The notes beneath the pieces are model-generated. The model saw nothing but the letters and a program-made list of their open reading frames with translations. It was not told where the DNA came from and did no database searches. 64,000 nt of DNA from Sphingobium xenophagum NBRC 107872 (GTDB lineage Bacteria; Pseudomonadota; Alphaproteobacteria; Sphingomonadales; Sphingomonadaceae): the NCBI RefSeq assembly GCF_000367345.1, contig NZ_BARE01000030.1, positions 1 to 64,000 of the forward strand, in the 5' to 3' direction. Both the position numbers and the translations under genes were made by a program. Below are positions 8,258 to 18,942 of the stretch, one piece after another (the stretch's first letter is position 1; each line of letters starts with the position of its first letter).

Positions 8258-8992
8258 TCAGGGGGGATCGATTGGCAAATCGACGATGCGGAAAACAGCC
8301 CCAGATCCGGCATCACGGACAAGGTCAACGCGCTGGCCATCCCAGTGATAGTCGAGGTGGCGCCCCTGCAAAGGATTTGACGCGCAGTCAGGGAAGAAGA
8401 GGGCAACGCATTCGCCGCCTAGGTTCCGAATGCTCGGATATACAATGCCATCGGATCCCGCCCCCCTCAGGTCCGCAGCGAGAGCTTGAGACGCAGCGTA
8501 GCTGTCAGGATCCAGCGCTGGAGCCGTTTCCGCCGCTCGAGATCGGAGATCATGAAGGCCTGCTTCGACTGACATGACAATTTCCCGGAATTGCGAGGTC
8601 CAGCCCGGCGCCTCTCGGGTTCGCGCCATGAAGTGGGCATGGTGGTGGATCGTCTCGAACAGTGCGGTTTCGAACCGATCGCCAACGTAGAGCACGCCGT
8701 AGCTGCCATCGGTAAAGCGGCTTGGCCGGTCGGTGCTGACGTGGGTGAACGGCACCATGAGGTAGGATGCCCCGTTTCCGCCGACGCGTCGGTCGACCGG
8801 AACCAGGTCAAGATTGCCAATCGTCGCCATGATGCGGGGATTGGTCTTCTGCTCTGCCGAGATCAGCAGCGGCCAGTCGGCTGGATCAGCAATGTCTTCG
8901 AACAGATCGATTGGCGGAAAGGCGCTGCGGATGATCCTGACAGCGCCCTTCCACTCAACTCGAGAAACGGGGATATCTGCCGCTCCGCTCAC
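8258..8992 (-). CDS. RES-domain toxin
   Basis: The 244-residue RES-domain protein is the toxin half of a Xre/RES type II toxin-antitoxin system; characterised members degrade NAD+. The RES core is visible: the Arg in PSRFTDGSYGVLYVGD, the Tyr after it, and the Glu in TALFETIHHH. Its ATG overlaps the antitoxin stop by 4 bases (ATGA), the usual antitoxin-first order. Toxin activity is inferred from family and context. Confidence 0.88.
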   Translation of the reverse strand: MSGAADIPVSRVEWKGAVRIIRSAFPPIDLFEDIADPADWPLLISAEQKTNPRIMATIGNLDLVPVDRRVGGNGASYLMVPFTHVSTDRPSRFTDGSYGVLYVGDRFETALFETIHHHAHFMARTREAPGWTSQFREIVMSVEAGLHDLRSRAAETAPALDPDSYAASQALAADLRGAGSDGIVYPSIRNLGGECVALFFPDCASNPLQGRHLDYHWDGQRVDLVRDAGSGAVFRIVDLPIDPP

Positions 8993-9402
8993 CAGCCACC
9001 GCGCTCAGCGTCGAGATAGCGACGCACCCGCATAATGTCGGTGAGTTCGCCCCCGAGCATCACGTCGAGCGCACTGGCTCCACCGAACGCATTGTTGGCC
9101 AACCTGATCCAGGAATAGCCACGGGTTGCCTCCGAGAAGATGATCCGAAGCGCCTTGTGGATGCCCATGAGGTTGGAGAGACGCGCACGCCCATCACGCG
9201 AAACGCGCCCGGGGCCTTCGGCTTTCCATCGCCGATAGGAACGCACCGGCATGTCGAGCAGGGTTGCTGCCTGCTCGTCGGTCAGTTCCCATTTGCCGAA
9301 CAGATTGAGGACTGCCCGGAACATGGCAGCTGCCTCGTCCTGGGTAATCGGATCGGGCCGGAAGGCGGTAACAGCAGTGTCAACGGGTTGCAGAGCCAGC
9401 AT
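8989..9402 (-). CDS. Xre/MbcA/ParS-type antitoxin of the RES toxin
   Basis: The 137-residue protein has an N-terminal helix-turn-helix-like region (WELTDEQAATLLDMPVRSYRRWK) and a C-terminal toxin-binding DUF2384 (MbcA/ParS/Xre) domain (LMGIHKALRIIFSEATRGYSWIRLANNAFGG). It should neutralise the RES toxin and repress its own operon. Start: the ATG at 9402 has GGAGA 7 bases upstream; a longer reading from 9444 would run through the likely operator and lacks a ribosome site. It is the first gene of the operon. Confidence 0.88.
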   Translation of the reverse strand: MLALQPVDTAVTAFRPDPITQDEAAAMFRAVLNLFGKWELTDEQAATLLDMPVRSYRRWKAEGPGRVSRDGRARLSNLMGIHKALRIIFSEATRGYSWIRLANNAFGGASALDVMLGGELTDIMRVRRYLDAERGGW

Positions 9403-9450
9403 GGCATTTCTCCGTATGGCATCATATATCCTTGATAATGCCATTTGGCA
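9401..9450 (-). promoter_or_regulatory. Candidate operator boxes of the Xre/RES operon
   Basis: Around the antitoxin start lie ATGGCAT at 9401-9407 and 9416-9422 and its inverse ATGCCAT at 9438-9444; the last also forms TGCCA-TT-TGGCA with 9446-9450. Such repeated half-sites directly upstream of a Xre-type antitoxin are what an autoregulatory operator looks like. This is inference, without binding data. Confidence 0.4.
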
Positions 9451-9455
9451 ATGGA

Positions 9456-11300
9456 TTACGCAGATGATACCAATCTAGCGATCACGCCCGCTGCGCCCTC
9501 GATCGGCACGAAGAGGCGCGTCTGGTAAAGGATGACCTCCGTAAAGCAGCCTTGAGCCTTGTACCAATCGAGGCGAGCCGCACTCCATCCGGCCAGCTCA
9601 ATTCGCTGTGAGCCATTGACCAGGCTGCGCTTGACCATTAGCTGCTCACGGCCGGTGAACTCCATGGCTCGGCCAGTCGCCAAGACGGTCTGGACGATGT
9701 CTTCGGCGGAGAGCGATTGCTCGCGTTCCAGACCCAGCGCCCGGCACAGTTCCGGAACACAATGGACAGGAACCTCCCGGCCGAGGAGCGAGCGGCCATC
9801 CGCCGCCGAGATACGACTGACCCTCACGAAATCCGAAGGGAGCTTGTCCCAGACCGGCAGTAGGAGGCCCGTCGCAAGATAGAGGCGCTCGCGCTTGTGG
9901 CTAGTCCGCGCTTCCTCGACCTCGGCTGCCCAGGCTTCGCGAAAAGCGTCGATGGAGATATCCTCCCAGCTGCTCTCAGTGAGCTGATCCTCGGTGATAT
10001 GGCTGCGCTTCAGCGGGCGCAGTAATTCGAAGCGGGCCACGCGCGTACCGTCATCGGCAAGGATGCTTCGGGCGGGCACCAGCAAGGCGACCCGACTTGA
10101 GCGGGCGTTCCGAACCGGCCGCTGTCGCTGGCCATTAAGGCCGTGAAGCTCCTCGAGCCGCTTCAGCGTGAGCGGCTTCAGGGCTCGGGCAATTTCCAGT
10201 TCCAGCAGATGGGTGGTCGCGCCCGATGCCGGATCGGTGCGCAGCAACGTGTCCGACAGGACCGCGAAGTCCTCGACTGCGATCGTCTCGAGGCCGAGAT
10301 CGATTGTGCCGGCCTGCCGGGCGGCATCGATGCGCGCTTCGACCAGACCCATGAACTCGTCGAAGATGGCGTTCTGCAGGGCGATAGGAAGTGCAAGGAT
10401 GCGATTGAGCCAACGCTGGATCGACGGCAGGTCATCGACCATTGAACCGTCGGGTGCTTCGATCCGAAGGCCCGTCAGCTCCTGAAAACGTCCGAGGCTT
10501 ACCGCTTCGAGCTTTCCCGTGAACAACAGGCCGAACCAGCGATGGAGCGCCTCCTTGGCATAGATGCTTTCGAGATTGTCGGCCGGATCGAACAGGTTCT
10601 GGCCGCCAGTCTGGCGCTGCCCGCGCGTCAGAGCGCCAAGACTGTCCAGACGCCGCGCGATCGTTGAGATGAACCGGCGCTCGCCACGCACATCGGTCGT
10701 CACGGGCCTGAACAGCGGGGCTGATGCCTGGTTGGTGCGATTGGTCCGGCCAAGCCCCTGGATCGCGGCGTCAGCTCGCCAGCCCGGCTCGAGCAGGAAG
10801 TGGACGCGGCGGGCCTGGTTCCTGGCGGCAAGATCAGCATGGTAGCTGCGCCCCGTTCCCCCGGCGTCGGAAAAGACCAGGATCCGCTTCTCTCCATCCA
10901 TGAAGGCCTGAGTTTCCGCGACGTTGGCGCGTGGCGAGCGGGATTGGAGTTGCTGACGACCATCGCGGCCGACGATCAGCCGACGCGTCCGGCCAGTGAC
11001 TTCCGCCACCTGATCAACGCCGAAGCGTTCGATGATGGCATCAAGTGCAGTGGCGATGGGCGGCAAGGCGCAGAGCTGCTCAATCATCCGGTCGCGCGCG
11101 GCAAGTGCGGAGCGGCAGAGCACCGGTGCGCCTTGCTCATCACTCATCGGCTCGGAGCGAGGATTACCGTTTTCGTCGGTGAACACTGCCATCAGGCGAA
11201 CAGGAAAGCTCCTGGCGAGATAGTCGATCACATATTCTTTGCAGTCGCAGTTTATGTCGAGCGTGGCGGCGGGAGGCGCAGGTTTCCTTCGGTTTTCCAT
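9456..11300 (-). pseudogene. 3' fragment of a strawberry-notch (SBNO) family helicase, with start supplied by the RIT element
   Basis: Of 614 residues, all from about residue 24 onward are the C-terminal helicase lobe of SBNO-like proteins: ILVFSDAGGTGRSYHAD and the motif VI-like QGLGRTNRTNQAS are clear. The fragment continues exactly where the other piece (ending PREYV at 16371) stops: EYV is followed here by IDYLARSFPVRL. The first 23 residues (from MENRRKPAPP) are encoded by the inverted repeat of the inserted element, which supplies GGAG and ATG in frame. The P-loop and DEAH halves are absent, so ATPase function is unlikely. An expressed chimera cannot be excluded. Confidence 0.8.
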
Positions 11301-11319
11301 GATTTCACTCCAGATAATT
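11229..11319. repeat. Left 91-bp terminal inverted repeat of the RIT element
   Basis: This copy matches 16260-16350 in reverse complement at 90 of 91 positions (C versus T in GTGGCGG/GTGGTGG). It carries an outward-facing GGAG ribosome site and ATG (11300) on the minus strand, which open the reading frame into the SBNO 3' fragment. Confidence 0.92.
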
Positions 11320-11459
11320 GCCTGACAAGGTTGAATGCTGGGGCCGTTAGGATTGTCGGCACCGCTGGAATGGTGCAGGTTGTAGAAAATCCCCGAGGCA
11401 GTCGTTCGTCGCTTTCAATCGAGGTCCCGATGCAAGGCTGTCCGCCATGGAGATCTGCC

Positions 11460-12764
11460 ATGCCGAACAAACTGCCCAAGCGCCCCATTATCGTTTTTCT
11501 CGCAGGGATTTTTCTGGGCTTGCCCGGCGTCGCAGGCGCAGTGACATTGACGTCATTAAAAGGCATGGATCTCGAAGGAAGCTATGGCTCGTATGCGCCG
11601 CGTGGCGATTGCTCTCGAGGGGCGAGCCTTGAGATCAACGAAACCGGCTTTACTTTCAAAGCGTCTGGTCAGACTGTAAAAAGCACCCGGTTTGAGTACG
11701 CGGCTTCGTTTCTTGGCCCGACCTATGAAGGCGTTAGCGCGGTCTTTTTTCCTTTTCCTGTCAATGCCAACGATTTCGGACGCGTGATCTTGACGGTCAA
11801 TGACGACGAAAAGCGAGGCGTAGTCCGCCTTGAAGCAGACGTCGCGCCTGGACAGCGCCTGGATCCGTTCAAGTCAGCGCTCGTGTCGCAATCCCCACTG
11901 CTCTTGTGCAAGGGGTCTGGGCCGGCATCTGCTGCTTCAAAAGCACCTCTGCAAGCAAGGCCAGTCTTGGGAAAACCGACGCCGCTAGCCTGGACCAATC
12001 TTGCGAGTTCCATAGGAAAATTCCAAAGTGATTCCGATCCCAACGGAATAGATCTTTTGACAAGTGGTCCGATAGCTGACGCGATACGTTCGCGTTTGGG
12101 CCGCAAAATAGACCTGCTGGCCAGCAATCTTTCGGCGATATCCGGTCTCCAACGACAAGGATCTCTCTATTGGGTTACGGGAAATGCGCCGCATCAAGGC
12201 GGTGTAGAGCAAGCCTATGTTTTGCTTGATGCAAATCGCCGTGCTGTTCAAATTGGCCTTTGGGAAAAGGGAAAGTTGACGGTCTATGCGCCTCAAGGAG
12301 GCCGCTTGCCCGTGCCCCAGGACATTGCTCGCCTGCTTATGGACAGCCCACCTGAGGACGCAGTGCCGCTGCCTGGGACTGCTTGGGAGGTCGTGCCGGT
12401 CCAAGGTCGCGCCCCAATGGCCTATGTCGATGTAGCTGCTTCGCCAAACATCAAGTCGTTTAGCCTGTTTTGTGAAGGCAACCGCCCCATGATGGCCATG
12501 CTCCTTAACAAGCCCGCGACGGTGCCGCGCGTTACGGTTACATGGAATTTTGCTGGTCGATTAATTGACATTCCGACCGGCCGCGCGAACGCTCAGAGCA
12601 CGTTTTGGCAGGCCAACCTCACTGGTTCCCAACTCATTCCGATGCTTCTCCGTCAAAACGGTTCGGTTATGCTACGCATCAACGGCCGCCTCGAAGGCGA
12701 AGCTTTGTTGGCGGGAGCGCCACTGGCGCTTCGAACTGCGATGCGGACCTGTGTCAAATTTTGA
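11460..12764 (+). CDS. Secreted protein of unknown function, RIT passenger
   Basis: The 434-residue protein has a clear signal peptide (residues 1 to about 27: basic MPNKLPKRP, hydrophobic IIVFLAGIFLGLPG, AGA cleavage site). The ATG at 11460 has GGAG 7 bases upstream; the reading frame is open further 5' to 10800, but that part is antisense to the SBNO fragment. The mature part is not recognised: it has an N-terminal beta-rich segment (MDLEGSYGSYAPRGDCSRG) and four cysteines. Codon use and base composition are visibly more AT-rich than the neighbours, suggesting separate acquisition. Its 3' end overlaps the end of the last recombinase gene by 11 bases, tail to tail. Confidence 0.7.
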   Translation: MPNKLPKRPIIVFLAGIFLGLPGVAGAVTLTSLKGMDLEGSYGSYAPRGDCSRGASLEINETGFTFKASGQTVKSTRFEYAASFLGPTYEGVSAVFFPFPVNANDFGRVILTVNDDEKRGVVRLEADVAPGQRLDPFKSALVSQSPLLLCKGSGPASAASKAPLQARPVLGKPTPLAWTNLASSIGKFQSDSDPNGIDLLTSGPIADAIRSRLGRKIDLLASNLSAISGLQRQGSLYWVTGNAPHQGGVEQAYVLLDANRRAVQIGLWEKGKLTVYAPQGGRLPVPQDIARLLMDSPPEDAVPLPGTAWEVVPVQGRAPMAYVDVAASPNIKSFSLFCEGNRPMMAMLLNKPATVPRVTVTWNFAGRLIDIPTGRANAQSTFWQANLTGSQLIPMLLRQNGSVMLRINGRLEGEALLAGAPLALRTAMRTCVKF

Positions 12765-13770
12765 CATGACCTCCTGCACGTATTTCCTGAAGCATTGATA
12801 GTAGATCGTCGCTTTGCGGCTTGAAGCGCCCGGGCCTGATGGCGGGTGCGCCGTGAGCCGCGAGGATTTGCAGCTTCTCCTCGGGATCGGCGCGCAAATA
12901 GGTCTCGGTGCTCTGGATGCTGGCGTGGCCGAGCCACAATGCAACCTTGCGAATGTCCCCGGTCGCCGCGAGCGTGTGCATCGCACAGGAATGCCGCAGC
13001 ACGTGCGGCGTAACCCGCTTGCCAAGGATCGACGGCTGCTTCGTTGCCGCGGTCTTGACGTGCTCGGCCAAACGGAACGCAAATCCGTCGCGGGTCATGG
13101 GCTGCCCGTTGGCATTGAGGAATATCTCGGCAGCTTGCGCGTCGGGCCGTATCGCAAGCCACGCGCGCAATACGAACTGGGTCTCTTTCCAGAGCGGCAG
13201 GACCCGTTCACGCCGACCCTTGCCCATGATGTGCACGGTGGACAGGGAGCGGTCCGGGAAATCGCGCAGCTGCAGCGTTACGAGTTCCGACACTCTCAGC
13301 CCGCCGGCATAGGCCAGATGCAGCATCGCGCGATCGCGGGTGCCAAGGCGTGTCCGGGGATCCGGGGCATCGAGCAAAGCCTTGATCTCGGCCCGGTCGA
13401 GGTAGTCGATCAGCGCCTTGTCGGTCTTCTTGGTCGGGATCGATCTGACGCGGAGGGCCAGATCCAGGCAGGCCGGAATCCGATACTCGATGTACCGGAA
13501 GAAGGACCGGATCGCGGCGAGCCTGCCATTGCGGGTCCGCACACAGCTGCCGCGCCCGGTCTCGACATGGTCCAGGAAAGCCATGATCATGTCGGGGCCG
13601 AGATCCTCGATCTCAAGATCGGTCGGCCGACGCTTCAGCCGATCGGCAGCGAACTGAACGAGGAGGACGAAGCAGTTGGCATAAGTCTTCACTGTGTGCG
13701 GGCTGACAGCACGTTCGCGTGGCAGATGCTCACGCAGGTATGCCGAGAGATGCGGAGCGAGCGCCGTCAT
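12754..13770 (-). CDS. Tyrosine recombinase, third gene of the RIT trio (RitC-like)
   Basis: The 338-residue XerC/D-like recombinase has a SAM-like N-terminal core-binding domain and a catalytic domain with Arg (GGLRVSELV), HxxR (HVLRHSCAMH), the second His (LGHASIQST) and the Tyr nucleophile (ETYLRADP). All catalytic residues are present. Its ATG overlaps the stop of the preceding recombinase gene by 4 bases, so the trio is translationally coupled. It presumably acts with the other two in excision and integration of the element. Confidence 0.9.
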   Translation of the reverse strand: MTALAPHLSAYLREHLPRERAVSPHTVKTYANCFVLLVQFAADRLKRRPTDLEIEDLGPDMIMAFLDHVETGRGSCVRTRNGRLAAIRSFFRYIEYRIPACLDLALRVRSIPTKKTDKALIDYLDRAEIKALLDAPDPRTRLGTRDRAMLHLAYAGGLRVSELVTLQLRDFPDRSLSTVHIMGKGRRERVLPLWKETQFVLRAWLAIRPDAQAAEIFLNANGQPMTRDGFAFRLAEHVKTAATKQPSILGKRVTPHVLRHSCAMHTLAATGDIRKVALWLGHASIQSTETYLRADPEEKLQILAAHGAPAIRPGRFKPQSDDLLSMLQEIRAGGHVKI

Positions 13771-14681
13771 GCCGCCTCTCCCCGGTAAAGCTGCTCGCTC
13801 GCAGCCGCAATGTCGCGCAGCAGCACCGGAGTGGCCTCGAGATACCAGTACGTGTTGGCGACCGACGCGTGCCCCAGATAGACACTGAGACCGGCCATGT
13901 GGTGAGCGATGGCCTCCCTGTCAGGTGGGCAGGACTCAAGGGAACGGACAGCGAAGGTGTGCCGCAGATCGTGGAGTCGCATGCCCGCCGTACCGGTTGG
14001 TCCACGATATCCGAGCTGCCGGGCCAATCTGACGAACACGACGTGGGCGCGCACCTTGTGCGGTGCCCGTCCCCGGATAGTGACGAACAGGTCGTTGCCC
14101 CTGGCCGCGTGCTTCTCGCGGAGGGCGAGATAGGCTTCGAGTGCTTGGCGCGTCGATGGCTGCAAGGCAATCAGCCGCTGCTTGCCAAACTTGCCGTTGC
14201 GGACGATCAGGCCATCCTCGACCAGATCTTTGCATTGTAATGCGAGGGCCTCGGAAATCCGGAGACCTGTCGCCGCCAGCAGCCCGAACAGGTAATGGTA
14301 CGTGTGTGGGCTGATCGTGCCTTGGGGTGGAACGTCCAATGCAGCAGTCATGATCGCCCGCACCTGGTCCGGCTCAATGATGGTCGGCGTCGGGCGTGGC
14401 CGCTTGCCCCGACCGAAGACGCCGGCAGGCGGAACTTCGTGGCCTGAATCTTCGGCGTGAGCGAAAAGGCTGAAGTTACGTGCGGTGTCGAACCTCCGGC
14501 GGGCCACATATTGTGAGCTCGACGTATGGCACCAGTCGTAGATGCGCTGGACCTGAGTGTGCCGATCGCCGAAACCCCCGGCGTAGGCGGCGTACAGGCG
14601 CAGCATGCGTTCCTGTTCAGAGAACTTCAGCCCGAGGCTGCGATGCAGCGCCACGTATCTGGAAATGTGGATGTTCAGCAT
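13767..14681 (-). CDS. Tyrosine recombinase, second gene of the RIT trio (RitB-like)
   Basis: The 304-residue integrase keeps the full catalytic set: Arg (TGLRISEALAL), HxxR (LHDLRHTFAVRS), His (LGHASVANT) and Tyr (YWYLEATP). It overlaps the first recombinase by 7 bases and the third by 4, giving one operon read from the right end of the element. Division of labour among the three recombinases is not known. Confidence 0.9.
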   Translation of the reverse strand: MLNIHISRYVALHRSLGLKFSEQERMLRLYAAYAGGFGDRHTQVQRIYDWCHTSSSQYVARRRFDTARNFSLFAHAEDSGHEVPPAGVFGRGKRPRPTPTIIEPDQVRAIMTAALDVPPQGTISPHTYHYLFGLLAATGLRISEALALQCKDLVEDGLIVRNGKFGKQRLIALQPSTRQALEAYLALREKHAARGNDLFVTIRGRAPHKVRAHVVFVRLARQLGYRGPTGTAGMRLHDLRHTFAVRSLESCPPDREAIAHHMAGLSVYLGHASVANTYWYLEATPVLLRDIAAASEQLYRGEAA

Positions 14682-16222
14682 GACTGTTCTCCCGGCCAGG
14701 GCTGCGCGATCTTCATGAGCATCGGCAGATCGACCTTGGCGTAGATGGCAGTGGTCTCGGGCGAGCTGTGACGCAGGATGGTCCCGACGGACTCCAGGCC
14801 TGCGCCCGCGCGCAGCAGGTTGGTGGCAAGCGAATGCCGGAATATGTGCGACCCGGTCGGCACTCCTTCGATCCCACCGCGGTCGCGCGTACGAGCGACG
14901 ATGCCCGCTATCTCAGCGGACGAGCGGAATGGCCGAAACGGTGCTTGTGCACGCAGGAACAGATGCTCTTCGGCGGCCTTCGGGCGGGCTGCCGCAAGAT
15001 ATGCCAGGATCGCGTCGCCAACATCCTGCGGCAATGGCAGGCGGTCCGGTCGACGCGTCTTGCCCTTGACCGTCAGGTGGCCGGATCGCCAGTCGATGTC
15101 GTCGAGACGCATGTTCTGAATATCGGCAGCCCGCAGGCCGAGCCTGGCGAGCAGGAGAATGATGGCCTTGTCCCGGACTTCCACCGGACGATCTGTCGGA
15201 CAGGCCGCAATGATCCTCTCGATCGTTGCCGGGTCGACGTGGCGCGGCAGCGTCGAAAGGCGGTAGCGCTGTACTGATGGAACTGCATGCAACAATGCCG
15301 GCCGGCACTCGCCACGCACGACCAGAAACCGGATGTAGCTCCTCATTATCGTGACGAGCAGCGATGCCGACCCCGGCGTCTCCTTGCTTCGTCGTTGGAA
15401 TGCGCTCCTGAGTCCGGCGGCATCCCATTGCGAAGGCTCGCCCAGCATTGGCATGAGCCGTCTGATATCGGTCCGGTAGCGCCGAATCGTCTCGTCCGTG
15501 GCGCCGCGGTGTTGCTTGAGCCATGCCAAGTAAGCCGACATGTGCGGGTCATCGTCCGCCACCGGTTCAACCAATGGGATGGCGCCCCGGCCTCGCAGGA
15601 ACTCGACGAAGTGCCGTGCGCATCGCCGCCGCCGCTTGGTGCCCGTTGCGACCAACTTGCCCCGCTTGCGCCAGACCGGGCATCGGCAATCATGCGCTGC
15701 ATAGTGGTCGATGATCGTGTCATCGATATCGATCCATTGGCGCCGCGCCATGCGAAGCCAGGCCACGAAATGCTCGGCCTCGGACCGATAGGCCTGTGCC
15801 GGTCCCTCGGCAAGTTGCAGGCGATCGATCGCATCGGAATAGTCGGCGAGGTGCCGTGGCAGATCGTCGATCCCGTCGTCGACTTCGACGTAGCCTTGAT
15901 CTTCCAGGAACCGGACGAAGCGCCTGACCCTTGCTGCTTGGTCAGCCTTGTAGTGCGCTTGCTGCGCCGAATACCGGTGGCACCGGCACCCATGCTTTTC
16001 GAACCGCCGGACAGCCCGATCGTCAATCGTGCGGATGGCGATCCTATGCAGGCCCAGCCAATGCAGGAAATGGCGGACCGCCGCGCCATACAGAACCGCA
16101 CAGCCTGACTTCTCGTCGAGCGACTGAGAGGAGAGGAATGTGGTGAGAAGGGTGCCGTGACTGGGCGGGTCTTCGACCCGGAGCGGGGCCGCTCGAAACG
16201 GCAATGATGATCTTGATCGCAT
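14675..16222 (-). CDS. Tyrosine recombinase, first gene of the RIT trio (RitA-like)
   Basis: The 515-residue protein is the largest of the trio. A long Cys/His-rich N-terminal region (HGCRCHRYSAQQ and HDCRCPVWRKRG look like paired CxC...H zinc-binding motifs) precedes a core-binding domain and a catalytic domain with Arg (LGLRAADIQN), HxxR (HIFRHSLATN), His (LRHSSPETT) and Tyr (AIYAKVD). The start lies 38 bases inside the right inverted repeat, so the promoter must sit in or beside the repeat. The zinc-binding idea is inference from residue spacing. Confidence 0.9.
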   Translation of the reverse strand: MRSRSSLPFRAAPLRVEDPPSHGTLLTTFLSSQSLDEKSGCAVLYGAAVRHFLHWLGLHRIAIRTIDDRAVRRFEKHGCRCHRYSAQQAHYKADQAARVRRFVRFLEDQGYVEVDDGIDDLPRHLADYSDAIDRLQLAEGPAQAYRSEAEHFVAWLRMARRQWIDIDDTIIDHYAAHDCRCPVWRKRGKLVATGTKRRRRCARHFVEFLRGRGAIPLVEPVADDDPHMSAYLAWLKQHRGATDETIRRYRTDIRRLMPMLGEPSQWDAAGLRSAFQRRSKETPGSASLLVTIMRSYIRFLVVRGECRPALLHAVPSVQRYRLSTLPRHVDPATIERIIAACPTDRPVEVRDKAIILLLARLGLRAADIQNMRLDDIDWRSGHLTVKGKTRRPDRLPLPQDVGDAILAYLAAARPKAAEEHLFLRAQAPFRPFRSSAEIAGIVARTRDRGGIEGVPTGSHIFRHSLATNLLRAGAGLESVGTILRHSSPETTAIYAKVDLPMLMKIAQPWPGEQSC

Positions 16223-16259
16223 GTTGGTTCCTTCGACTTGTTGAGGTCGAGGGAACCGT

Positions 16260-16350
16260 AATTATCTGGAGTGAAATCATGGAAAACCGAAGGAAACCTG
16301 CGCCTCCCGCCACCACGCTCGACATAAACTGCGACTGCAAAGAATATGTG
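16260..16350. repeat. Right 91-bp terminal inverted repeat of the RIT element
   Basis: This copy is the reverse complement of 11229-11319 with one mismatch. On the plus strand it encodes an outward mini reading frame (GGAG, ATG at 16279) of 24 codons, closed by a TAA that the adjoining palindrome provides. Confidence 0.92.
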
Positions 16351-16379
16351 TAATGTTGAGCTCAACATTAGACATATTC
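16342..16379. repeat. 38-bp dyad at the RIT right junction (probable attachment site)
   Basis: The centre is a perfect 20-bp palindrome, TAATGTTGAGCTCAACATTA (16351-16370), flanked by GAATATGT (16342-16349) and its inverse ACATATTC (16372-16379). The palindrome is present only at this end. This is what is expected if the circular form joins its two ends through the 20-bp palindrome and recombines into an ACATATTC target. Confidence 0.75.
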
Positions 16380-17288
16380 CCGAGGGGACAGGTCGATCTC
16401 CAGCGCTTCGCGTTCCTCGTCCGAGAGGTCGGCAAGCCGGCGGTCGAGCATGGCTTCTGCCGTCGAGACCAGCTGGACGACAACAGCCTGCCCATCGGCA
16501 ATCGCCGCATCGATCGCGGGCAATAGGCTTGGGAGCTTCATCGACAGAAGCAGCTGCGCGAAGAAGCGCTGCTTGGTTCCCTCGAAGATCGACAGCGCTG
16601 CGGACTTGGCACCGGAGTTGAGCGTCCCCCCGGTCTCGCTGTCGACGATCCGAGTGGCCTCAAGCGCTTCGCGCAGGTTGGCGTGGATGATCGCCCAAGC
16701 CTCGGCATAGGCATCGTAGACCGCGATCTGATCCTTGGTCAGGCAATGCTCGAGGATTTCATACTCGACGCCGGCGAACGAAAGGGCCCGGGCCGTGTAG
16801 ATGCCGAGTGATTTGAGATCCCGCGCGACCAGTTCCATTGCTGCAATTCCGCCATCGCGAATGTCGGCAACGAAGGCCTCGCGATTGGCAAAGGCGGTCT
16901 CCGGGCCCCAGAGTCCGAGGCGCGTCGCATAGGCCAAGTTGTTGACGTCGGACGCTCCGGTTGCCGAGGCGTAGAGCACCCTTGCCCGGGGCAGGAGGTT
17001 TTGCAGGCGCACCCCGGCGATGCCTTGCTCCGATCCCTTGACCTTGCCCCGCGATCCTTCCCCGCCGGCAGCGTTGGCCATGGCGTGCGCTTCGTCGAAC
17101 ACGATCACTCCGTTGAAATCGTCACCGGCCCAGGCGAGGATCTGATCGAGGCGGGTCGCGTCGTTTCGACCCGAACGCAGGGTCGGATAGTCGAACTGGG
17201 TCTTCCGCGTGAACCGGCGCATGTTCATGTCTTCGATCATGCGCTGACGCAGCGAAGTGGCGGGGGCATCGGACAGAACGGTGGTCAT
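16368..17288 (-). pseudogene. 5' SBNO helicase fragment fused to the N-terminus of another integrase
   Basis: The reading frame of 306 residues is a chimera. Residues 1 to about 34 (SLRQRMIEDMNMRRFTRKTQ) match the opening of XerC-like integrases often seen beside IS91-type elements; from about PTLRSGRNDATRLDQI onward it is SBNO helicase with the DEAH box (VIVFDEAHAMANAAGG) and motif III (YASATGASDV). The SBNO Walker A and the methylase-like N-terminal region are gone. It ends at PREYV, where the stop TAA comes from the RIT palindrome. The ATG at 17288 has AAGGAG 8 bases upstream, inherited from the integrase gene. Expression is possible, function unlikely. Confidence 0.75.
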
Positions 17289-17462
17289 GGTACGACTCCT
17301 TGGTTGAAAGGAGCCGCGATCGTCTGCCTACTTCGCCCAGACCTCAACTTACGCTCAGGCCGCCGATCACTGGCCAGACCTCAAAACAAGCGCCACTCCC
17401 GCGCCAGCGGGTTCGTACAAGTCCCACTGCCGGTCCGTTGCAGCAGGCATCCAAAATCCTCG

Positions 17463-18689
17463 TCAACCGCCTGACGAGAATGCCATATTGATGACTTTAC
17501 CGCCCTCTCGGATCATATCGAGGTGGTCGCTCCACCACTGCGCCATGCGGACACGTTCCTCCCAGTGCTTGCCGCGGTGGTAAACGCCACGGACTGCATT
17601 ACTATCACCGTGAGCCAATCCTCGTTCGATCGCGTCCGGGTTCCAAAGGCCGCTTTCGTTCAGCATAGTGGATGCGGTGGCCCGCAGCCCATGAGCGGTG
17701 ACCTCATCCTTGGTGAAGCCCATCCGGCGAAAGGCGGCATTCAAGGTGTTTTCGCTCATCGGTCGAACAGACGCACGGGCCGAGGGGAACACATACCCTT
17801 GGGTGCCGACCATCTCGGCGAGCTCTTTCAGGTAGCCAATTACCTGCTTTGAAAGCGGCACGGCATGAGGGCGCCGGGACTTCATCTTGCCTTCAGGGAT
17901 CCTCCACACACCTTCTTCCAGGTCGATCTCCTTCCACTCGGCGTGCCGTAGCTCGCCAGGCCGGACAAAGACGTGGGGAGCGATCAGAAGGGCATATCGG
18001 GTGATGAAGTTGCCAGTGTAGTCCTGGATCGCTCGTAGCAGCCCGCCAAGCTCCTTGGGTTCGAGAATCGCGGCGTAGTGCTTTGCCTTTGGCGTGATCA
18101 GTGCCCCACGAAGCATTGATGTAGGGTCGCCTTTGCAGCGCGTGGTGGCAACGCCATACCGGAATACGCGGCTCGCAAACGACCGGGTCTTCTTCGCAGT
18201 CTCGTGCTTACCCTTGGCCTCGAGCCGCTTGAGAGGAGCGAGCACTTCAAACGGCTCGATCTCGTCGATCGGTCGGCTGCCAATCGCGTCCACCAGCTGC
18301 TCGAGAAAGAAGTTGGCCTTCACGATGGTGGCATCTGCCCTGCCACTCTGCACCATCATCTGATCGATGTACTCCCGCGCCACTGCCTCGAAGGTCTGGG
18401 CGGAGAGGAATTCGGCGCGAATCTTCTGCTTACGCTTCTCCATCGCCGGGTCGCCGCCTGAAGCGATCTTGTGCCGCGCCTCATAGGCTGTCTGCCTTGC
18501 CTGCTTGAGGCTGATCTCGGGGTAGGCACCGATCGACAGCTTCTTTTCGACCGGGCCGATCCGGTAGCGGAATCGCCACAGTTTGCCGCCGGCTGGGGAG
18601 ACCTCGATGTACAATCCGCGGTCGTCAGCAACCTTGTAAGGCTTGTCCTTTGGCTTGAGTGCTCGAAGCCGAGTCTCGGTCAGCGGCAT
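17463..18689 (-). CDS. P4-type tyrosine integrase of the genomic island
   Basis: The 408-residue protein begins MPLTETRLRALKPKDKPYKV, the DUF4102 arm-binding domain of P4/CP4-57-type integrases, followed by a core-binding domain and a catalytic domain with Arg (VRPGELRHAEW), HxxR (HGLRATASTML), second His (LAHGDSNAV) and Tyr (RGVYHRG). It lies 166 bp from the 3' end of tRNA-Leu and reads away from it, the usual layout for an island that integrates into the tRNA 3' end. The frame is open further upstream into the tRNA, but the domain start fixes the ATG at 18689. Confidence 0.92.
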   Translation of the reverse strand: MPLTETRLRALKPKDKPYKVADDRGLYIEVSPAGGKLWRFRYRIGPVEKKLSIGAYPEISLKQARQTAYEARHKIASGGDPAMEKRKQKIRAEFLSAQTFEAVAREYIDQMMVQSGRADATIVKANFFLEQLVDAIGSRPIDEIEPFEVLAPLKRLEAKGKHETAKKTRSFASRVFRYGVATTRCKGDPTSMLRGALITPKAKHYAAILEPKELGGLLRAIQDYTGNFITRYALLIAPHVFVRPGELRHAEWKEIDLEEGVWRIPEGKMKSRRPHAVPLSKQVIGYLKELAEMVGTQGYVFPSARASVRPMSENTLNAAFRRMGFTKDEVTAHGLRATASTMLNESGLWNPDAIERGLAHGDSNAVRGVYHRGKHWEERVRMAQWWSDHLDMIREGGKVINMAFSSGG

Positions 18690-18855
18690 GTGCGGGCCTT
18701 TTCCCGATGTGGTTTTCGCAAAGGCCCGCAAAAGGCCCGCAAAAATGTGCGGAACCCCCGAGAAAAGGCGGGACGATCCGGCACGATCCAAGGGCCAATT
18801 CCCTTGGATTTCTGCGGGTTTAATACACTTTTTGGGATGTTCCGAGAAGAACAAA

Positions 18856-18942
18856 TGGTGCCCAGAAGAGGACTCGAACCTCCACGACCTTGCGATCGCC
18901 AGCACCTGAAGCTGGTGCGTCTACCAATTCCGCCATCTGGGC
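18856..18942 (-). tRNA. tRNA-Leu (anticodon CAG)
   Basis: The 87 bases fold as a class II tRNA: acceptor GCCCAGA/TCTGGGC, anticodon arm CCAGC-TTCAGGT-GCTGG with anticodon CAG, a variable arm, T arm GGTTCGAGTCC, discriminator A and an encoded CCA. It is the probable attachment gene of the adjoining integrase. Confidence 0.95.

Follow-up and report, generated by a model that had tools for sequence, protein, structure and literature searches.

What three recombinase genes are doing inside a helicase gene, and by what route they came there, is the question raised by a 64,000-nucleotide stretch of Sphingobium xenophagum NBRC 107872 (contig NZ_BARE01000030.1; hereafter the window). At 11229-16376 the window carries a cargo-bearing recombinase-in-trio (RIT) element, together with its spacer, inside a gene for a strawberry-notch (SBNO) helicase. 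An earlier note on this DNA had recognised an RIT-type element with a passenger inside an SBNO gene, and the inverted repeats, the three Phage_integrase genes and the SBNO halves on both sides upheld that identification. Our main finding is the element's site memory and its inversion rather than the passenger. Copies in many genomes suggested, from their sequences, that relatives of the element enter one fixed SBNO codon, invert whenever a jump can be traced and preserve, as six-letter records, the two sites they left most recently. The element was very probably a transposon specific for one SBNO codon position, moving by such a flip-and-shift cycle.

SBNO was the regular target and not a chance location. 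An alignment scan for RitC across GTDB species genomes placed, among the best 80 of 116 relatives, 52 in SBNO, 21 on contigs holding only the element and 7 elsewhere, ruling out chance insertion (L151, L163, L164 and L168, the same records as L070, L068, L069 and L071, were counted within the 80 and omitted from the repeat-end tabulation). Even where RitC identity had dropped to 63-68%, elements still lay in SBNO, at 8 loci (junctions unparsed) from Rhizobiales, Rhodobacterales and unplaced Alphaproteobacteria. As for the seven exceptions, L179 lay in a ParB-like gene (Pfam ParB_N above the cut-off), L182 was in a weakly ParB-like setting, and L181 adjoined a frame ending in PPEYV that had no Pfam match; the surroundings of L177, L178, L183 and L193 were read by eye only. 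A search of 72,556 plasmid records returned 139 matches to the element, 8 of them containing at least 80% of it. The 5.1-kb form with cargo occurred at 99.9-100% identity in Sphingobium yanoikuyae p-B-Sy and two Sphingopyxis macrogoltabida records and at about 95.5% in five others, while 3.7-kb forms without the passenger fell from 93.5% to about 72% identity; in the relatives searched, the trio co-occurred with these repeats, as the earlier note had expected. A phage origin was rejected, with no match among 50,697 phage records. Two observations concerned the assemblies: the contigs of the 21 element-only loci (L115, L117, L121, L139 and L141, for example) were about one element long, many of them 3.7 or 5.1 kb, and may be collapsed multi-copy repeats or circles, and in Sphingomonas sp. 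MEA3-1 (L024 and L025) the element was divided between two plasmid records within ritC, by inter-plasmid recombination or misassembly.

The anatomy of the site was read from 55 complete filled SBNO sites, the window included. In the SBNO sense each had the form X-GA(A/G)-h1-20-bp palindrome-h2'-TTC-repeat...repeat-GAA-h3-(I/V/L/M)DY, where h1, h2 and h3 are variable hexamers. In the window, h1 (TATGTC on the minus strand) lay at 16371-16376, the palindromic spacer TAATGTTGAGCTCAACATTA, without strand, at 16351-16370 and h2 (TATGTG, plus strand) at 16345-16350; these were followed by the right repeat minus its hexamer (16260-16344, minus strand, ending in GACTGCAAAGAA), and on the other side by the left repeat minus its hexamer (11235-11319, plus strand) and h3 (TATGTG on the minus strand, 11229-11234), which is part of the target. 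With their hexamers, the repeats were 91 bp long (11229-11319 and 16260-16350), 90 of 91 positions (99%) were complementary, as reported before, and 4940 nt separated them. The note's extent of 11230-16371 located the element without giving its exact bounds; since the palindrome and two more hexamers sit outside the right repeat, the element with its spacer extends to 16376. The element stood in either orientation, with ritA beside X in 30 sites and ritC in 25, and the palindrome was on the X side (the SBNO 5' side) in 55 of 55, whichever way the element faced. The 161 hits of the repeat-end motif led into the palindrome in 64 cases, into SBNO in 63 and to a contig end in 29, the other five being four unrelated sequences and one end of L181. 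In the source genome the 91-bp repeat matched at full length only at its two places in the window; a third match, of 34 bp at 88%, was another SBNO gene. The SBNO gene on contig C84 of this genome natively reads GACTGCAAAGAATATGTC, like the element end.

One reading of the flanking ACATATTC repeats would be a target-site duplication. This was ruled out, as they consist of TTC and the three hexamers, which were all equal in only 4 of 55 sites, and they were better described as carried hexamers. Empty SBNO genes supplied the native sequences for comparison: 90 candidate loci were examined, 69 gave a site and 21 none, and one (L252) was filled and was dropped, leaving 68. L252 belongs to the genome of L068 and has a 3' junction only, as its contig starts there, so that the L068 pair stood outside the flip-and-shift comparison. 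The native hexamers were TAYGTS for YV, TTCCTG for FL, GCGATC for AI, GCCGTG for AV and TACATC for YI. In the filled sites, the amino acids of h3 tracked the downstream SBNO class (mutual information 1.43 against 0.78 for shuffles, a value that 0 of 2000 reached), whereas neither h1 (0.86 against 0.83, 740 of 2000 shuffles as high) nor h2 (0.77 against 0.81, 1249 of 2000) was associated with it. The pool of native and h3 hexamers, 27 of 4096, contained h1 in 49 and h2 in 53 of the 55 sites. Because the class association was confined to h3 and the other two hexamers mostly belonged to this pool, comparison indicated that h3 is the target's own and that h1 and h2 were most likely carried from other SBNO sites. 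The nearest empty SBNO gene (at least 90% identity) had a hexamer equal to h3 in 6 of 18 cases and to h1 in 3 of 15; this comparison was indecisive because synonymous third bases vary among near relatives, and the class-based test was used instead.

When near-identical copies in one genome were compared, a rule emerged: one copy is inverted, and its (h1,h2) equals (h2,h3) of its partner. Each of the 13 steps between such copies, in eight genomes, fitted this rule: six in the family of the window element, five in a second family and two in a third. Pairs of identical copies in S. chungbukense DJ77, Sphingobium sp. YBL2, S. xenophagum C1 and S. yanoikuyae SHJ were in opposite orientation with shifted hexamers, and the triples TATGTG, TTCCTG, TATGTC on pDC04 of R. 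wittichii DC-6 and TATGTT, TATGTC, TATGTC on pSAMIE_2 of S. amiense fitted likewise, the elements being identical over 3700 bp in both cases. Outcomes had been set beforehand for DC-6 and S. amiense in the first family (one alternative per movement direction), for C1, CAP-1 and S. amiense in the second family, and for the second family in genome G017; for the second-family prediction the opposite gene orientations were already visible and the L011 junctions already known. In the first family, 6 of 6 within-genome identical pairs fitted, against 22 of 1590 other pairs. Variants of the rule fared worse in these six pairs: none fitted with the X-side hexamer h1 travelling, none without inversion, and three when the target's hexamer was placed on the X side. 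Asymmetric spacers reversed with the element's flip in YBL2, DC-6 and S. amiense (first family) and in CAP-1 (second family).

These pairs also bear on whether the element moves at all. It could have been inherited with the SBNO genes or spread by homologous recombination, an account that would suit the shared backbones of sphingomonad plasmids and the near-identical elements found in related plasmids. However, elements that are 100% identical lay in different SBNO alleles of one genome, inverted and with their hexamers shifted, and we consider inheritance without transposition scarcely credible. The earlier suggestion that the element can move was borne out to the extent that comparison allows, by identical copies that occupy separate SBNO genes within a single genome.

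Two further, distant trio families fitted the flip-and-shift rule as well. The second trio, with 28% identity to RitA, occupied a second SBNO site, W|AI|IH, often in the same genes, and had its own 20-bp palindrome (L004, L008, L009, L011, L014, L016, L017, L019, L022, L067, L132 and others). Its within-genome pairs fitted the rule in 5 of 5 cases (C1, CAP-1 and S. amiense, with G017 and YBL2 added later), the copies being 99.9-100% identical over 3.6-3.8 kb, whereas none of 40 pairs taken across genomes did so. In three of these genomes (C1, S. amiense and YBL2), the movements of the first and second families linked the same plasmids and ran the same way. The third trio, with 28-bp repeats and again a 20-bp palindrome, was present in three copies in G017, forming a chain from L262 through L084 to L263 in which both of two steps were inverted and shifted; in the two loci scanned, its target was an ArdC antirestriction gene at the HExxH codons (Pfam ArdcN and MPTase-PolyVal). 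A 20-bp palindrome was present in each of the three families. Beside the third trio lay a shared stretch of about 4 kb with more recombinase-like frames.

Several observations weighed against this account. Among 50 first-family pairs from all genomes that were at least 99.5% identical, 7 fitted one step (permutations gave a mean of 1.44, and 2 of 2000 reached this number); all seven were inversions, and they included four within-genome pairs and the chain L142, L143, L147. Most near-identical copies are thus not related as parent and offspring, which leaves 13 steps in eight genomes as the basis of the rule; among these, the steps in SHJ and in second-family S. amiense and G017 were weakly informative, as their hexamers repeat. 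Five within-genome pairs of non-identical copies (86-91%, or identity not given), not counted as steps, included one that fitted and four that did not. L068 and L069 were near-identical and opposite in orientation with the same spacer reading, which the flip does not explain, and L018 and L019 were the reverse case. Six of the 55 h1 hexamers and two of the 55 h2 hexamers were in no native pool, L128 and L173 had the palindrome at both ends, and no circular form was observed. L128, L173 and L185 had an SBNO 5' half on both flanks, as inversion between two copies would give. The presence of both members of a pair is no proof of copying, because a pair is visible only if both are present.

A cycle that would produce these patterns can be outlined. 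The Rit recombinases would join both ends, and h3, the hexamer on the SBNO 3' side, would leave with the element in a circle whose joint reads repeat-GAA-h3-palindrome-h2'-TTC-repeat, that is, two inverted crossover sites around the palindrome. In a second SBNO gene the circle would then enter at GA(A/G)-hexamer-(I/V/L/M)DY by way of its other crossover site, that of h2, and so become inverted. The hexamer native to the target would stay on the 3' side, and (h1,h2,h3) would become (h2,h3,target). The other site may be used because the fresh joint stays nicked, as the open-circle form of strand-biased circularizing integrative elements (SEs) suggests, leaving only the other site duplex. Tn916-like integrative and conjugative elements, in comparison, use ordinary two-strand excision and integration. 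Such recombination could be at work here too, with the hexamers as plain coupling sequences and the one-sided pattern arising from sampling or from selection of one product; carried coupling hexamers as such suit any tyrosine-recombinase element with a heteroduplex overlap, and no intermediate has been observed. We nevertheless considered this unlikely, as h3 tracked the target class across the whole set and h1 did not, and as 13 of 13 steps fitted with h3 carried, whereas in the first family a travelling h1 fitted none of six pairs and a target hexamer on the X side three. A strand-biased flip-and-shift cycle remained the preferred explanation.

Insertion splits the host SBNO gene, and most copies of the element provide a stop behind its 5' half and a start in front of its 3' half. 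In the window, the 3' half, which encodes the C-terminal helicase part, lay at 9456-11228 on the minus strand (Pfam Helicase_C_4, E 3.8e-99), and its open reading frame (9456-11300) ran on into the repeat as far as an ATG at 11298-11300, with GGAG at 11308-11311 on the same strand. In all 55 copies the repeat combined a GGAG-type site and an ATG with a frame of exactly 22 codons that continues into the SBNO 3' half, encoding 19 peptide variants such as MENRRKPAPPAATLDINCDCKE. Sequence was sufficient to follow the 3' half in 53 copies, and in 50 of these it stayed open as far as its normal end. On the other side, the spacer placed TAA directly after h1 in 49 of 55, as it did in the window, and six TTA-type spacers read on for 37 codons. 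The 5' half was open for 827-927 codons in 37 of 55 copies and for 108 codons in 14, a length that corresponds to the part beyond site 2; in 11 of those 14 the second trio occupied that site. The remaining four were L147 (230 codons), the window (319) and L135 and L156, which reach the contig end. The stop and start supplied by the element may keep both SBNO halves translated, judging from the reading frames, and a recent insertion would also leave the halves open.

Against continued translation, the 3' half was broken in L009, L011 and L015, and the 5' half in the window was truncated to a remnant (16377-17189, minus strand; open reading frame 16368-17288; Pfam AAA_34, E 3.4e-63), homology to other SBNO genes stopping near 17189. 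The insertion might simply inactivate SBNO, the in-frame start and stop being by-products of a recombination site that resembles SBNO DNA. An open frame near the repeat end is expected, because this end resembles a native SBNO gene (34 bp, 88%), and the six copies with a TTA-type spacer had no stop straight after h1 and met one only 37 codons on. However, the ATG, the GGAG-like site and exactly 22 codons were kept in 55 of 55 copies across 19 peptide variants, despite a 1-bp difference in GGAG-ATG spacing between subfamilies, and the open 3' halves point the same way, though recent insertion could explain these too. Simple inactivation was accordingly a serious contender, of somewhat less than even probability, and a split gene with both parts perhaps translated was preferred. 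If so, the element would lead an unusual life inside a gene for which it supplies a stop and a new start. In eight pairs of split SBNO halves dN (nonsynonymous divergence) was below dS (synonymous divergence); this was not used as evidence of selection, as it mostly reflects the time before insertion.

The trio itself was as described earlier, three overlapping tyrosine recombinases with catalytic residues. All were on the minus strand: ritA (14675-16222, 515 residues), ritB (13767-14681, 304 residues) and ritC (12754-13770, 338 residues, the last of them unlike those of cargo-less elements), with overlaps of 7 and 4 nt and Pfam Phage_integrase matches at E 5e-27, 8e-17 and 3e-31, respectively. 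The catalytic motif of tyrosine recombinases is R...K...HxxR...H...Y, and R159, K184, H256, R259, H282 and Y291 of RitC were invariant in 10 aligned rows, as were R364, K388, H459, R462, H485 and Y494 of RitA in 7; the residues of RitB were present by eye. RitA also matched SAM_1 at residues 230-301 (E 1.5e-6) and, weakly, SAM_5 at 30-78 (E 0.02); two core-binding domains in RitA and an extra C-terminal helix in RitC are given as RIT hallmarks in the available part of the literature (PMC8138268). Neither a fourth small gene (srap/ginD) nor the non-catalytic tfp/ginC of SEs and GInts was found in the window trio, every member of which has Phage_integrase, and the cargo-less relative L012 was annotated with three recombinases only.

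The passenger gene (11460-12764, plus strand) encodes 434 residues and converges with the trio. It lay in a cargo segment (11320-12817, plus strand, the right border of about 12817 being approximate and set by eye) that replaces the roughly 90 bp between repeat and ritC of cargo-less elements. The earlier description of a more AT-rich passenger facing the trio agreed with a G+C of 0.556 against 0.633 for the trio, and its signal peptide was recognised by eye only. The protein had no match in Pfam, NCBIfam, PADLOC, PHROGs or PDB sequences, and its AlphaFold model had a mean predicted local distance difference test score of 34.6. It is conserved, with dN of 0.17 and dS of about 3 (saturated) between the window and L156, and is probably exported. 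The passenger family was present in 14 of the 55 complete elements; 40 were 3.65-3.70 kb long, too short for another gene, and L166 had a 199-residue frame without a Pfam match. In a recombinase tree, from which L150 and L186 were omitted as their recombinase genes were read in pieces, the passenger-bearing elements did not form one group, L156 and L120 standing apart (L120 with moderate support), and this scatter makes repeated loss or exchange of the passenger probable. In strain SHJ, both copies (L006 and L023) had an IS256-family insertion sequence between repeat and passenger, which seems to have moved along.

Carriage of cargo by these elements is occasional. In the cases seen, the cargo lay between ritC and its repeat, a space that would accept different genes: in L188, L192 and L194, Rhizobiales or Rhodobacterales RIT relatives, it was filled by a protein of 824-866 residues, and the two of these three that were scanned had AEP-TOTE primase and helicase domains (E 2e-95 and 3e-97). 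The earlier proposal that the element may pick up cargo was supported by these lineages and by the cargo-less 3.7-kb relatives beside the 5.1-kb form. Relatives of the passenger at 51-58% (L077-L081) and two partial ones (L082 and L083) had no trio within the 7-12 kb fetched, one such contig being 4.2 Mb long, and another relative (52%) lay on a Blastomonas plasmid with no trio nearby. The passenger was therefore probably drawn from sphingomonad genomes; at this SBNO site, none was seen outside an element in the sequences searched, the occurrence that had been named as a counter-indication. Alternatively, the passenger could be a working part of the element, for example a transposition regulator, in line with its conserved protein sequence and its convergence with ritC in several diverged lineages. 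The lack of space for any further gene in 40 of 55 complete elements, the probable signal peptide (by eye) and the relatives with no trio nearby made this improbable, and we continued to regard the passenger as cargo.

The surroundings of the element in the window added some context. The SBNO 5' half breaks off and gives way, within 17190-18942, to a frame resembling an integrase (17463-18905, by eye) and a gene for tRNA-Leu (18856-18942), so that an integrated island probably has its border at this copy of SBNO. On the other side, a RES-type toxin and antitoxin (8258-9444, by eye) adjoined the SBNO gene, and L006 was also annotated with a RES gene beside SBNO. Four further SBNO genes with long open frames (1417-1465 residues), on contigs C82, C84, C74 and C123 of the source genome, were empty targets.

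Taken as a class, we lean toward viewing RIT-type trios as site-specific splitters of conserved conjugative-element genes, with SBNO (at two codons), ArdC (at HExxH) and ParB-like genes as targets. The alternating sites of the palindromic joint would invert the element at each jump and advance a two-slot, six-base register, so that an itinerary becomes readable, and spread to the cell's other SBNO alleles would resemble homing, with stop and start supplied. The rule is concrete and falsifiable, it makes the last moves of each copy readable and it fits in three distant trio families. Mobile introns and inteins likewise interrupt conserved genes at codons of conserved motifs and invade alleles of the same cell that are still empty; unlike them, the element here is a DNA transposon, with no splicing and a gene split with perhaps a supplied stop and start. 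The comparison also showed cargo carriage and a preference for establishment genes of conjugative elements (SBNO methylase-helicases and ArdC). The standing of SBNO as an establishment or antirestriction gene is based on the coupling of strawberry-notch ATPases to adenine methylases in plasmids and phages, as given in the sections available (PMC5512222).

RIT elements of Cupriavidus metallidurans CH34, Acidithiobacillus and pHG1 have been described, in the accessible portions of two reports, as overlapping RitA-B-C genes in about 3.5 kb, with a 28-29 bp inverted repeat and an overlapping palindrome, inserted in radC and tnpA (PMC3414803, PMC2864759). The elements studied here resemble them in having a trio of tyrosine recombinase genes that overlap one another, inverted repeats at the ends on which a palindrome encroaches, and insertion sites within genes, and differ in their 91-bp repeats, their cargo and their SBNO target. 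The palindrome and the "sequence variation at the ends" noted there (PMC3414803, PMC2864759) would both be explained by carried hexamers and a palindromic joint. For RITs, a table published in 2023 marked three properties as not tested: target specificity, empty site and movement (PMC10214605). The palindrome and the flip-and-shift rule were not found in the portions of the literature searched on RIT elements and strawberry notch, a search that did not cover Ricker et al. 2013 and Nielsen et al. 2017.

Other elements offer parallels too, as described in the same portion of the 2023 article (PMC10214605). The Tn554 family and GInts likewise have several tyrosine recombinases and site preference, with a 6-bp footprint in Tn554; their gene sets are others (TnpA/B/C and GinA-D), no palindromic joint is described for them there, and they were set apart here by that description. 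In SEs, six bases of one flank leave with the circle, after which the target's six stand beside one end and the carried six beside the other. The hexamer shift found here agrees with a similar strand-biased joint carrying one flank hexamer, a joint that we infer from comparison. Unlike SEs, with IntA, Tfp, IntB and Srap and a single carried hexamer (PMC10214605), the present elements have three recombinases, two carried hexamers with a palindrome, and an inversion at each step.

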